From: a virus
Direction: 5' to 3' (one strand)
IMG/VR virus record: IMGVR_UViG_3300007735_000783
Location: 1 to 64,000 of that record
Length of the DNA stretch: 64,000 bases
How positions within the stretch are numbered: the stretch's first letter is position 1; each line of letters begins with the position of its first letter. This document shows, piece after piece, positions 38,950 to 49,910 of the stretch. The notes under the pieces were generated by a model. That model saw only the letters and a program-made list of their open reading frames with translations, did not search any database and was not told the origin of the DNA. The translations under genes and the position numbers were made by a program.

Positions 38950-39984
38950 ATGGATAATGTCTTTAATCTTAGTTCATTTTCTTCATCTTTAGGAAATCCT
39001 GGTAGATCGGATAGCCGTTCCTTTCAAGTAGGCGGAAAATCGGCAAAAGACCGAGGTGCGTCTTTTATAGAAGATCAAGTAAACTTTGGTCGTTCCACAG
39101 GATATTTAAGATCTAACAGATATTGTATTCTGTTTCAGGGAGTTCCAAGTTCTCTTGAAATGCAAAGACAGGATAATGGATTTTTGTGGGGTTTGGATAA
39201 CAAAAGACTTTCTTTAAACTGCCTTCAAGCAAGCATACCAGAAAGTTCATTTTCCACATCAGACTTTCGTGTTGTAGGGCCAAAAAGATCAATTCCTTAT
39301 TCCCAAGATTTTGGTGATACCAACGCATCGTTTCAATTTAATTGCGGTACTGATCTTTATGAGTACACATTCTTCAGAGCATGGCAGAGATCAATAATAG
39401 ATCCAGTATCCCGATATGTTTCATTCTATGACGATTACGCAAAACAATGCTCCATATCAATTATTCCTCTTCCAAACTTTGTTTATAATTTTGGTCATGT
39501 TCTAGAGTTGTTGGAATCTGGAAGATTATACGGTATAAAAATGACTGAAGTTTATCCAAAAAGTGTAGGGGTAAATCAGTTCCAAAATGCTTCTACAAAT
39601 ACTCTAACCGTTTCAAGCGTAAATTTTGCCTATCGTGAACTTATTCCATACGCAAGTTGGGACGATGATACCAAATATGCCATGCATGCCGGTATATCAC
39701 AAATAATGGATATGACATCTAATAGTGCTAGAGTTTCCGACGATCAACTAAATGGAATTAGAAAAGATTTGACAAACGAAGAAAAGCAAAGATTGCAAAC
39801 TGCTTGGTTGGCAAAGGCTCCTGCTGGTGCAAAGATAGATGGTGGAAGACCGGATTATACAAAGTATTTGAAAAACAATCCAAACGATCCTACCTTGCCT
39901 CAATACGCAGGAGAGCCGGATCTATTCCTAAACAACCTCATAACATCAGGAATCAATACTTCAGCCTTGTTTAGAGGCATATAA
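38950..39984 (+). CDS. gp54: Baseplate-tail tube initiator gp54
   Basis: The 344-residue protein (T4 gp54: 320) should form the first tube-like ring on gp48, on which gp19 polymerises. The middle resembles tube proteins: NRYCILFQGVPSSLEM, RLSLNCLQASIPESSFST, DTNASFQFNCGTDLYEYTFFRAWQRSIIDPVSRYVSFYDDYAKQCSISIIPLP and YGIKMTEVYPKSVG, then VSSVNFAYRELIPY. These are the conserved tube phrases also visible in gp19 (61871). The N-terminal 40 residues, rich in Ser/Gly, and the C-terminal 90 are gp54-specific. Its stop lies inside the late box that serves gp26. Confidence 0.8.
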   Translation: MDNVFNLSSFSSSLGNPGRSDSRSFQVGGKSAKDRGASFIEDQVNFGRSTGYLRSNRYCILFQGVPSSLEMQRQDNGFLWGLDNKRLSLNCLQASIPESSFSTSDFRVVGPKRSIPYSQDFGDTNASFQFNCGTDLYEYTFFRAWQRSIIDPVSRYVSFYDDYAKQCSISIIPLPNFVYNFGHVLELLESGRLYGIKMTEVYPKSVGVNQFQNASTNTLTVSSVNFAYRELIPYASWDDDTKYAMHAGISQIMDMTSNSARVSDDQLNGIRKDLTNEEKQRLQTAWLAKAPAGAKIDGGRPDYTKYLKNNPNDPTLPQYAGEPDLFLNNLITSGINTSALFRGI

Positions 39985-40017: not shown

Positions 40018-40725
40018 ATGGCTTTACCTATTGTTGCGACACCAAAATATGAAATAAAGATACCTTCAAGCGGTCAGGTGATTGAATATAGACCGTTTTT
40101 GGTAAAAGAAGAAAAGATTCTTCTTCTTGCTAGTGAAACTAAAGATGAGCGTGAACAAATTCGTGCAATGAAACAAGCAATAAGAAGTTGCACTTTTGAA
40201 AAAATTGATGTTGATAAACTTGCTCCATTTGATATTGAATATCTGTTCTTAAAGTTGCGATCAAAATCTGTTGGTGAAACTGTTGAGGTTTCCGTTTCTT
40301 GCGAAGATGGGTGTAAAGAGACTGTAAAAGTTCCTGTTCGTCTTGATGATGTGGAAGTAAAATTCAATCCACAATTTACTAATCGCATTCAATTATCTGA
40401 CAATGTTGGAGTCTTGATGCGATATCCCGCTTACGATGACATGATAAAATTGGCTGAAGCACAAAAGAAAGATGACCCCGCCCTAATCATGGAATTTGTG
40501 GCAAGTTGTGTGGATGTTATATACGATAAGAGTGAAGTCTACAAGGCTAGTGAATACTCAAATAAAGAAATTGTGGAATTTTTAGAGCAGTTGTCTCAAA
40601 TGTCACTAAAGAAAATAATGAATTTCTTTGAGTACATGCCAAGTCTAGAAAAGACAATAACATATAATTGCTGCGGAAAGGAAAAGGAGGTAACGCTAAA
40701 GGGAGCACAAAGTTTTTTTCAGTAA
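40018..40725 (+). CDS. gp26: Baseplate hub/tail assembly chaperone gp26
   Basis: The 235-residue protein (T4 gp26: 208) fits the T4_baseplate family: TPKYEIKIPSSGQVIEYRPFLVKEEKILLLA at the N-terminus and MRYPAYDDMIKLAE in the middle. Cysteines C95/C99 (SCEDGCKE) and C218/C219 (YNCCGKEK) could form a zinc site as proposed for the family. In T4 it is needed for hub assembly and is absent from the virion. The ORF ends AGT TTT TTT CAG TAA: the T7 run forms a -1 slippery heptamer in frame, so a fraction of ribosomes could make a gp26-fusion with the next small ORF. The gene lies two short steps upstream of the tape measure. Confidence 0.8.
   Translation: MALPIVATPKYEIKIPSSGQVIEYRPFLVKEEKILLLASETKDEREQIRAMKQAIRSCTFEKIDVDKLAPFDIEYLFLKLRSKSVGETVEVSVSCEDGCKETVKVPVRLDDVEVKFNPQFTNRIQLSDNVGVLMRYPAYDDMIKLAEAQKKDDPALIMEFVASCVDVIYDKSEVYKASEYSNKEIVEFLEQLSQMSLKKIMNFFEYMPSLEKTITYNCCGKEKEVTLKGAQSFFQ
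40713..40719 (+). promoter_or_regulatory. Candidate -1 ribosomal frameshift site (T TTT TTT)
   Basis: The last sense codons of gp26 are AGT TTT TTT CAG before TAA. T40713-T40719 is a perfect X XXY YYZ heptamer in the gp26 frame. Slipping back one base gives TTT TTT TCA GTA AGC ATG, which stays open through the small ORF to 40928, making a predicted 303-residue fusion. A perfect AAGGAGGT (40684-40691) lies 21 bases upstream, a possible ribosome-pausing element. No strong downstream stem-loop was found by eye. Confidence 0.55.
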
Positions 40726-40727
40726 GC

Positions 40728-40928
40728 ATGATGCACGATAGTCTTGCAAATATGCTTGAAAGTAACTTTGCTATGATTCAACATCATAAGTATTCCTTAA
40801 GCGATATTGAGGGGATGATACCGTGGGAGAGAAGAGTTTATATTGAAATGCTTGTTAATCATGTGAGAGAGGAGAACGAACGGCAGGGTAATTCAAATCA
40901 ATTTGATCCTGCTCAATTTAAAGGATAA
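40728..40928 (+). CDS. Small tail assembly chaperone-like ORF (gp51-position; likely GT-type C-terminal domain)
   Basis: From ATG 40728 (or the adjacent ATG 40731) the product is 66 residues: MMHDSLANMLESNF, then HHKYSLSDIEGMIPWERRVYIEMLVNHVREENER. The YSLxDIExMIPWERxxY pattern is familiar from short ORFs next to gp26 in marine T4-like phages, sometimes called gp51. T4 gp51 is much longer (249), so the name is uncertain. No ribosome site lies close to ATG 40728; the strong AAGGAGGT is 36 bases away. That favours expression by -1 frameshift from gp26 or by stop-restart (gp26 stop and this ATG are 2 bases apart). It ends four bases before the tape measure ATG. Confidence 0.6.
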   Translation: MMHDSLANMLESNFAMIQHHKYSLSDIEGMIPWERRVYIEMLVNHVREENERQGNSNQFDPAQFKG

Positions 40929-40932
40929 GTAG

Positions 40933-43770
40933 ATGGCAGAGTCAGAATTTAATTTAGGTCCTAACTATCCGCCTGGTGGCGCACCCGAAAATCCAAGGGT
41001 GAACAATTCTGCATACGATTCAGAATTGAAAAAGGCGCAGCAGTTACAAACAGATACTTTAAAGTCTCTCAACGAAACTATAAAAGGACTTTCTGAACAA
41101 TATGCCGAACTTACTGCAAATGATCGTAAATTGACTGACGAAGAACTTGCAGCGAGTAAGATGCTGCGAGAAAAAATTGATGTTCTATCTCAAATATTAG
41201 AGAGTGTAAAAAGTGATGCTTCTAAAGGAGGGCCGCAAGTTCCTCTATCTGCTATAGGCATAAAAGAAAGAACAGAAACATTTACAAAACTTTCAAAAGT
41301 AATAACTGACTTTCAAAGGTCTTCTGCTGATCTTAGAGCGGCTGGTGGTGGAGAAATGGAATTTGACCAATGGTTCTCTACCTATTTGGAGCAACAAAAA
41401 CTAGACAACTTAAGTCTATCTCAGCAAGAACACAACAGTTTATTACTTCAAGATGTAAAGAAAATACTTAAAGACTCCAACACATCCTTATCTTCTTTAT
41501 CTGAAGATGAGTTGGAAGAATTGGCTAGAAGATCTATAAAATTATCTATTGACCAAAAGCAAATAGAAACAGACTTATTGGCACAAAACAGGGATGTCAT
41601 TAAACTCAATAAAGATGCTAATGCTCAAGATATAAAAAATACAAAGGCTATAGTAGAGTCAAGCAAATTTGATCCATCAAAACCTATAATTGAATACGGA
41701 TTTAAAACAGTAAACAAGCAGATGGCGGAAATTGTGGAGAACACAAAGCCCCGCAGTCTGTTTAAAATTGTTACTGATTTAATGGGCCCCTTTGGCAAAA
41801 TTATATACTTTTTTGCCAAGTTTGTTGTTGCACCACTATTGTTTTCTTTTGGTATCATTACTGGATTTTTATTAGTTCAATACGGAAAACTTAAAGGATT
41901 AGGTGCTTTATTAAGTGGTGAAGTGTTCCTATTATTTTTAGAGGGATTAAAACGATTTAAAAACATCATAGTGTTTTTGTATAAAGATGTTCCCTTAATA
42001 GTTTCTAGTTTTATAAATCAAGTATCTACAAATGCTGCAAAAGCAGTGCAGCCTATAAGAACTATTTCTAGAATATTTTCTAACATTGCTAGTGGTAGTG
42101 AAACATTCTTTTTCGCTTGGACTCGCATACTAAATTATATACAACTAATACCATATCGTCTTGCTGCATGGTTTGAAATCTTTAAAAATTTTGAATCCAA
42201 TATAGGCAAATTAAGTAAGTTTGAAAAGATTTATGTTGTTGTTGGAGACGCACTAATAGGTATAGGAAAAATAATAGATAAACTGAAACCCACATTTGAA
42301 ACTATTGGAAAATTTGGCACATCAATCACAAACCTAGCAAGTTATATTGGTAGCATAGTAGGAAAAATATTTTCTCCAGTTACCCAATTGTTTTCTTCTA
42401 ATTTAGGAAAAGCGTTGATAGGCTTTGATAAGATGGGTGTTGGATTATCTTCAATGTTTAAGTTTGGTGTTACCATAGGTAAATGGCTTGGTGGGGTTAC
42501 TCCTTGGTTTGTTACCCTTATCACATTATTCGCAGATATTCCTAAATTTTTTAAGGCTTTATTTTATACTGATGCATATACCGCCATTAAATCTGTAATG
42601 GCTTTAATTGTACAAGTTGCTGGATTAGTTTTGTCTACCCTATTTGGCGGACCTTTAGGTGCAATTGCCGCATCATATGTTCTGAAGTTTGAAAACATAA
42701 TGAAATGGCTTGATCCTATCTTTGATTTTATTATATACACTGGTGGTATTGTTTTGGGATTATTGTATTCAATCTACAAAGATTTTGTACAACCTGCATT
42801 TGAAGCAATCGGACAAGTTGCCTTAACTGTATTGAATTTGGGATTTGCTTTATTAAAGCCTATATTTAAATTTGCTCAGTTTGTATTATTGCTATTAACA
42901 CCTCTATTTGCTATTGTTGCTTTAGTGTTTAAGGGTGTGGGTTATCTTTTTAAAGGGATATCAATTCTATTCAAAGCAATAAACAATAATATAGTTGAGC
43001 CGTTTATTAAATTTTCAGAATGGTTTATGTTCAAATTTATACAGCCAATTTATGACTGGCTTGCAAGCACTTGGTTTGGTAGACTTGCTGGCATGGAAAC
43101 AAAAGAAAAGCGTTTAGCCAGAGAGCGTAAACAAAAGTTAAAGAATCAAACTGCTGAAGGCGAATCTAAAAATAGTATTTTTTCCGAAATCAACATTGAT
43201 ACAGAATCTATAGGCAAATCTGTAGATATTGGTATAGGTAAAACAAAAGAGTTTGTAAATTCTGCTGTTGATAAAACTGTTGGTGTTGTTGAAAGTACTA
43301 CAGATTCTTTAAAATTTATTAGTAAAGATTTTTCAGGTTCAATTTATCATTTATCAGACACTTTAAAGACGCAGTTGACCCCAATCACAAATACAATGAT
43401 TCATTTGGGCAAGTCTTTAGGTATGCGGGCTACAGAATTTGGTAATGTGGCTTTAGATAAAATGAATACGCCAATGGTACAAACCGTTTTAACGAATCTC
43501 ACAACGCCCATTTCAGGCTATTCTACTGCCACTACAATAACTCCATCAAATGCTCCCGCCAACAATCGTATGGCTGAAGAATATCAATGGATGGCATCTT
43601 TACTAGAGAAAGCCTCTGGAGATGAAAAGAATAGAGCCGCCAATAATACTGTTAACAACCAACAAACAACGGTAGTCAACAATACTAGTGGCGGCTCATC
43701 AATGACTATGCCTAGCAACAGCGAAAGAACTGTTAATCAAATTAACAATTCAGTTCGCCCCGCAGGATAA
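40933..43770 (+). CDS. Tail tape measure protein (gp29 role)
   Basis: The 945-residue protein has an N-terminal helical, polar region (residues 1-270, many Glu/Lys/Gln; KSLNETIKGLSEQYAELTAN). A long central region with at least five hydrophobic segments follows (IIYFFAKFVVAPLLFSFGII near 288-307, TPWFVTLITLFADI near 523, VMALIVQVAGLVLSTLF near 556, FDFIIYTGGIVLGLLY near 600, and FAQFVLLLLTPLFAIVALVF near 654). The end is Asn/Gln/Thr-rich (NNTVNNQQTTVVNN). This is the composition of tape measures, which fix tail length and enter the host membrane. T4 gp29 has 590 residues. Its place after gp26 and the chaperone-like ORF supports the call; sequence similarity to gp29 is not visible by eye. It converges with gp32, stop to stop. 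Confidence 0.72.
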   Translation: MAESEFNLGPNYPPGGAPENPRVNNSAYDSELKKAQQLQTDTLKSLNETIKGLSEQYAELTANDRKLTDEELAASKMLREKIDVLSQILESVKSDASKGGPQVPLSAIGIKERTETFTKLSKVITDFQRSSADLRAAGGGEMEFDQWFSTYLEQQKLDNLSLSQQEHNSLLLQDVKKILKDSNTSLSSLSEDELEELARRSIKLSIDQKQIETDLLAQNRDVIKLNKDANAQDIKNTKAIVESSKFDPSKPIIEYGFKTVNKQMAEIVENTKPRSLFKIVTDLMGPFGKIIYFFAKFVVAPLLFSFGIITGFLLVQYGKLKGLGALLSGEVFLLFLEGLKRFKNIIVFLYKDVPLIVSSFINQVSTNAAKAVQPIRTISRIFSNIASGSETFFFAWTRILNYIQLIPYRLAAWFEIFKNFESNIGKLSKFEKIYVVVGDALIGIGKIIDKLKPTFETIGKFGTSITNLASYIGSIVGKIFSPVTQLFSSNLGKALIGFDKMGVGLSSMFKFGVTIGKWLGGVTPWFVTLITLFADIPKFFKALFYTDAYTAIKSVMALIVQVAGLVLSTLFGGPLGAIAASYVLKFENIMKWLDPIFDFIIYTGGIVLGLLYSIYKDFVQPAFEAIGQVALTVLNLGFALLKPIFKFAQFVLLLLTPLFAIVALVFKGVGYLFKGISILFKAINNNIVEPFIKFSEWFMFKFIQPIYDWLASTWFGRLAGMETKEKRLARERKQKLKNQTAEGESKNSIFSEINIDTESIGKSVDIGIGKTKEFVNSAVDKTVGVVESTTDSLKFISKDFSGSIYHLSDTLKTQLTPITNTMIHLGKSLGMRATEFGNVALDKMNTPMVQTVLTNLTTPISGYSTATTITPSNAPANNRMAEEYQWMASLLEKASGDEKNRAANNTVNNQQTTVVNNTSGGSSMTMPSNSERTVNQINNSVRPAG

Positions 43771-49478: not shown

Positions 49479-49910
49479 ATGAGAATGCTAGTGAGTGAAG
49501 TTCTGTATAAAGTAGAACAGGCTAAAACTGAATCGGAAAAAATAAATCTATTGCGAGTAAATTATTCTCCAGCATTGGAGGATACTCTGCGATGGGCTTA
49601 TGATCCTAATATTTTGTTTTTCACCAAAACAATTCCGCCTTACACACCCGATCTTTCTCCTGAAGGACTGGCTTATACTTCTTTGTATTCAGAACACAAA
49701 AGATTTTATATATTCCTAAGAGATTATAAATTAGTAGAAGAACGAAAGACCGTTTTACTAATTCAAATGCTAGAGGCTTTAGGAAAAACAGAATCAAAGA
49801 TATTAGAAAATATCATACTGAAGGATATTCCTGAAGTATCTAAAGACCTTGCATGCAAGGCTTATCCAAATTTTTTGAACAAACCTATGAAGATTCCTAT
49901 GGAGGCATGA
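49479..49910 (+). CDS. DUF6433-like conserved late protein
   Basis: The 143-residue protein opens MRMLVSEVLYKVEQAKTESEKINLLRVNYSPALEDTLRWAYDPNILF and continues PPYTPDLSPEGLAYTSLYSEHKRFYIFL, the pattern of DUF6433 in marine T4-like phages. ALGKTESKILENIILKDIPEVSKDLACKAYPNF follows. It is mostly helical and its function is unknown. It ends in ATGA, overlapping the next start. Its late boxes indicate synthesis with structural genes. Confidence 0.7.
   Translation: MRMLVSEVLYKVEQAKTESEKINLLRVNYSPALEDTLRWAYDPNILFFTKTIPPYTPDLSPEGLAYTSLYSEHKRFYIFLRDYKLVEERKTVLLIQMLEALGKTESKILENIILKDIPEVSKDLACKAYPNFLNKPMKIPMEA

Follow-up and report, generated by a model that had tools for sequence, protein, structure and literature searches.

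The gp26 gene of a T4-like marine virus very probably carries, in a run of T residues at its 3' end, a signal that makes some ribosomes step back by one base and thereby add 69 residues to the protein. The gene lies in a stretch of 64,000 nucleotides, here called the window. Gp26 would serve as a tail assembly chaperone in its short form, and we consider it highly probable that a -1 slip at a slippery heptamer yields a long form of 303 residues. A -1 frameshift, together with an analogy to the G/GT system of phage lambda, had been proposed in an earlier note on this DNA; the proposal is backed by the conservation of the heptamer and of the open frame, by the suppression of synonymous changes, by a Shine-Dalgarno (SD)-like element, and by the T4 protein gp51, which is an in-frame equivalent of the fusion.

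The gp26 gene and the -1 reading frame

The following features of the cassette are relevant here (window coordinates):

38950..39984, + strand: tail tube-like gene 5' of gp26 (phrog_45, E=7e-18)
40018..40725, + strand: gp26, putative short chaperone form (TAC-N), 235 aa (PF12322, E=7e-64; phrog_150, E=8e-70)
40713..40719, + strand: slippery heptamer T_TTT_TTT
40719..40928, + strand: -1 frame extension (TAC-C), 69 codons and a stop (phrog_634, E=2e-24; C-terminal part of phrog_150, E=3e-5)
40933..43770, + strand: putative tape measure gene, 945 aa, named from its position and length

The 3' end of gp26 reads AGT TTT TTT CAG TAA, with the heptamer in the gp26 register one codon before the 0-frame stop at 40723-40725. 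The -1 frame begins SVSMMHDSLANM and is open up to the TAA at 40926-40928, and a -1 slip gives a fusion of 234 + 69 = 303 residues. Four bases separate the stop of this small open reading frame (ORF) from the ATG of the putative tape measure gene at 40933. All of these details, from the in-frame run T40713-T40719 and the frame open to 40928 to the spacing of the tape measure start, had been described in the earlier note and were reproduced to the base. The 945-aa ORF stands in the right position for a tape measure gene and has no family match in the comparison with Pfam-type and PHROG profiles; in phage phiM12, the annotation of the long gene 3' of the matching cassette notes a similarity to tape measure proteins.

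The families matched by the two parts bear names that refer to the baseplate: PF12322 is called T4_baseplate, phrog_150 is labelled 'baseplate hub', and phrog_634, which is matched by the small ORF, is labelled 'baseplate hub assembly catalyst', the name under which gp51 is annotated in cyanophages. The small ORF also matches columns 226-277 of phrog_150, past the end of gp26 in that profile, so some phrog_150 members hold both parts in one chain. An alignment of relatives revealed a conserved C-domain motif, NFA..HHKYSL..E.M.PWER. The AlphaFold2 model of gp26 (pLDDT 90) matches those predicted for other viral proteins of the gp26 type, and sequence and fold searches of the PDB gave no meaningful match of gp26 to a solved structure. 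The C-domain is predicted to be helical with moderate confidence (pLDDT 75).

Conservation of the heptamer and of the open -1 frame

As the earlier note had suggested, the junctions were compared across T4-like relatives. The first set was retrieved through gp26 and consists of the window, 82 IMG/VR contigs and 11 named phages (KVP40, P-SSM2, phiM12, Milchi, Melnitz, Vibrio D479, Stenotrophomonas Bhz51, Aeromonas CC2, Rhizobium N34, S-CRM01 and S-PM2). In 94/94 of these loci, T_TTT_TTN is combined with a 0-frame stop close by and with a conserved C-domain in an open -1 frame; the named phages had been picked because they carry the arrangement, and gp26 relatives without the heptamer exist outside the set. 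The base following T_TTT_TT is C in 72 loci, T in 21 and G in one; the 0-frame stop lies 0-9 nt past the heptamer, and the -1 extension has a length of about 56-70 codons, save where a contig ends. An independent retrieval starting from the C-domain, with about 70 new loci, revealed the heptamer in 82/82 (C 55, T 21, A 6); the gp26 and C-domain scans covered the best 80 matches each, a sample that leans to closer relatives. Besides gp26, one other window ORF of at least 100 aa has an X_XXY_YYZ sequence in its last 12 codons. Since only this one comparable ORF is found elsewhere in the window, and since every relative retrieved in the two scans has the gp26 heptamer, its presence is not due to chance. 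A candidate T_TTT_TTG (TTTTTTG) near the end of the ORF at 49479-49910, with a -1 frame of 71 codons, was rejected as probably a chance occurrence; the ORF that overlaps it downstream starts at an ATG preceded by a GGAGG of its own.

The small ORF is annotated as a separate gene in public records, and it might indeed be a gene of its own (the cyanophage 'gp51') that is translated from its own ATG, perhaps by termination-reinitiation, without any fusion being made. In the window, the -1 frame reaches an ATG after 3-4 codons, and 52/86 relatives likewise offer an ATG; stop and start overlap in 8/89 loci, and several relatives with such an overlap or a nearby ATG could permit reinitiation. However, 18 of the 86 relatives possess no ATG, GTG or TTG from which a separate ORF could start, and an SD match at normal spacing for any small-ORF start was found in only six of them, which makes a separate small gene unlikely. 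The earlier statement that the small ORF has no ribosome site near its ATG agrees with this, as neither of the window ATGs, at 40728 and 40731, shows SD pairing at normal spacing. Moreover, the stretch between the heptamer and the ATG itself encodes conserved protein, and a separate gene would not need an invariant heptamer. Taken together, we regard independent translation of the small ORF as very improbable.

Nucleotide-level selection at the slippery site

Among 89 non-redundant loci, the codon in front of the two slippery Phe codons has T as its third base in 89/89, though it encodes Ser, Asp, Asn, Ala or Gly, and the first slippery Phe codon is TTT in 89/89, compared to 67% TTT elsewhere. 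The chance of the former is ~1e-21 and that of the latter ~5e-16; both figures assume independent loci and are therefore overstated because of kinship. As a control, internal Phe-Phe pairs of the same gp26 genes were inspected, which show the pattern in 3/77 cases. The heptamer is kept even where its last base turns the amino acid into Leu (TTA in six loci, TTG in one). Across about 165 loci, the signal is thus shown to be under selection at the nucleotide level, and the comparative support for -1 programmed frameshifting in gp26 is very strong.

A run of T residues could also act during transcription, as slippage of the RNA polymerase would produce mixed mRNAs encoding the fusion. The seven consecutive T's of the window, and eight in one relative (L011), would suit such a mechanism; however, most relatives have six T's only, followed by C, A or G, and runs of six T's are usually too short for efficient transcriptional slippage. 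The codon register, the SD element and the T that ends the codon before the Phe pair suit slippage of the ribosome instead, and a transcriptional origin of the fusion is, in our judgement, highly improbable.

Candidate stimulatory elements and proposed mechanism

Three elements around the heptamer could influence ribosomal frameshifting:

40698..40705, + strand: SD-like candidate stimulator AAAGGGAG, 7 nt 5' of the heptamer, at the anti-SD pairing peak
40684..40691, + strand: second SD-like sequence AAGGAGGT, 21 nt 5' of the heptamer, off the conserved position
40723..40758, + strand: candidate RNA stem-loop from the MFE fold, spanning the 0-frame stop and the small ORF ATGs

In 89 relatives, pairing with the 3' end of the 16S rRNA peaks in an 8-nt stretch ending 7 nt before the heptamer, where the mean anti-SD pairing energy amounts to -6.9 kcal/mol versus -0.7 kcal/mol in control segments. 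The Glu codon overlapping the SD-like element is GAG in 54/70 loci, as compared to 27% GAG elsewhere. The earlier note had drawn attention to a perfect AAGGAGGT located 21 bases before the heptamer; this sequence is present, but the conserved element is AAAGGGAG, 7 nt away. A_AAG_GGA (40698-40704) was considered as a second slippery site, being formally in frame and leading to the same frame after a -1 slip; it was rejected, as the relatives do not conserve it as a heptamer and mostly retain just its SD character (GAG GGN).

In the relatives, the RNA folds more strongly just 3' of the heptamer than in most segments nearby (mean z -1.13, 28% below -2). A second, similar dip (mean z about -1.0) is found ~200 nt 3' of the heptamer, close to where the C-domain ends and the putative tape measure gene starts. 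Given this second dip and the weak z of only -1.4 for the stem-loop of the window itself, the downstream RNA element is no more than suggestive as a stimulator. An Rfam search returned nothing at the junction of gp26 and the small ORF.

From this signal we infer slippage, at a rate that would let most ribosomes terminate at the gp26 stop (40723-40725). A minority would pause while the upstream AAAGGGAG is paired to the 16S rRNA, perhaps aided by the downstream stem-loop, and both Phe-tRNAs on TTT TTT would slip back by one base. Reading in the -1 frame would then run on to 40928 and add the small helical C-domain to form the 303-residue protein. Gp26 and the fusion would act as chaperones, a fixed mixture of short and long forms coating the tape measure protein and recruiting tail tube subunits, as in the case of lambda G/GT.

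T4 genes 26 and 51 and relatives without the heptamer

T4 gp51 covers columns 13-280 of the 282 columns of phrog_150, that is, the gp26 part and the C-domain, and a profile comparison agrees with this; T4 gp26 covers columns 14-235 only. The C-domain alone matches the C-terminus of T4 gp51 (hhalign E=1e-4). Judged by these alignments, T4 gp51, a gp26-like domain joined to the C-domain, is the in-frame counterpart of the gp26 fusion, and T4 gp26 is a homologue of the short form described here. The comparison favours the view that T4 has its short tail chaperone in gp26 and its long one in gp51. In contrast to the single frameshift locus of the window, the two forms are encoded in T4 by separate, divergently transcribed genes, and T4 gp26 has TTC TTT instead of a slippery heptamer; in the T4 group at large, where gp51 is likewise a gene of its own, gp26 has TTC TTT or a similar sequence that is not slippery. 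In 2022, Vladimirov and colleagues reportedly described frameshifting as a conserved trait of several T4-like groups, with T4 using genes 26 and 51, and the papers citing them agree with this.

With the separate genes 26 and 51 of T4 as a precedent, a second complete gene could encode the long form in the virus studied here as well, and the slippery run would then be a relic. However, the 70.9-kb record, which is possibly a fragment, contains one gp26 match and one C-domain match only, and no second in-frame gene combining both parts was found in it. Furthermore, the T4 group has no heptamer, so relics seem not to persist. We therefore hold such a second gene to be exceedingly improbable and retain frameshifting at the gp26 heptamer as the source of the long form.

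In some phages, the -1 C-domain is kept after gp26, whereas the junction contains no X_XXY_YYZ sequence and reads [A/C]TT TT[C/T]. These are the Ackermannviridae Mutine, Ds23CZ and Bestiario (L013, L019, L199), Escherichia LHE287 (L201), and the Vibrio phages K448 and K452 (L015, L200). No start codon lies close by in Mutine and Bestiario; the others possess a TAATG-type overlap or a nearby ATG. A non-canonical frameshift or reinitiation may operate in these phages. A broader generalisation falls somewhat short of even probability: the signal, made up of an SD-like element at ~7 nt, T_TTT_TTN, an adjacent stop and weak downstream structure, would be essentially invariant among T4-like phages, the marine ones as well as many others, and would have been lost in the T4 group, in which a separate gene encodes the long form; a non-canonical slip would then be implied for the Ackermannviridae and for some Vibrio phages, which keep the -1 C-domain without a canonical heptamer.

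The annotation of the C-domain is inconsistent among relatives. It is left unannotated in Aeromonas CC2 (L016, 2205-2373) and AsFcp_2 (L202, 1617-1784), and in Vibrio D479 its annotation is trimmed to a later start. Our reading corrects a common error: the annotations of many T4-like genomes list the C-domain as a 'gp51' in its own right or as a 'hypothetical protein', cut it to a later ATG, or omit it.

Comparison with known systems

In E. coli dnaX, an SD-like element lies a few bases 5' of the heptamer and a possible stem-loop lies 3' of it; the window differs from dnaX in its heptamer, T_TTT_TTT, and in its weaker downstream structure. The slippery sequence of lambda G/GT also differs from T_TTT_TTT. 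In lambda, both the tape measure protein and the major tail proteins are bound by a short protein and its -1 extended version (PMC5009743), and gp26 is likened to this pair by analogy: the gp26 system may work like G/GT, and no sequence or fold match of gp26 to solved tail assembly chaperones was found in the PDB that would place it in the family by homology. The same source, a review of 2016, describes the G-T frameshift as a conserved feature of long-tailed phages, T4 excepted. In Pakpunavirus Adele, which belongs to another phage family (Vandenendeviridae), the tail assembly chaperone gene precedes the tape measure gene, and the 3' end of TAC-N carries GTTTTT as a conserved -1 site (PMC12846349).

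The earlier note knew of no report of frameshifting in gp26, a statement that has been superseded. Tail assembly chaperone genes of T4-like phages were identified by Vladimirov, Gautam & Davidson (Virology 2022, 566:9-15), whose work is cited for poly-T -1 frameshift signals in T4-like TAC-N genes (PMC12846349) and, in the PRFect paper (PMC10885494), for T4-like phages with separate short and long genes. In this T4-like TAC-N/TAC-NC arrangement, as the citing papers convey it, a short form acquires the C-domain through a -1 frameshift at poly-T. The window likewise has a gp26-family short protein, a -1 C-domain homologous to T4 gp51 and a conserved slippery site; no essential difference is apparent at the level of detail given there, and the window represents an uncultured marine relative whose gp26 is <50% identical to that of the named phages. 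Measured against the prior description as it appears in the papers citing Vladimirov et al. 2022, the present analysis adds its scale, the test of synonymous sites and the SD-like element, and by its sequence the window is a new, well-supported example of an already reported T4-like arrangement.
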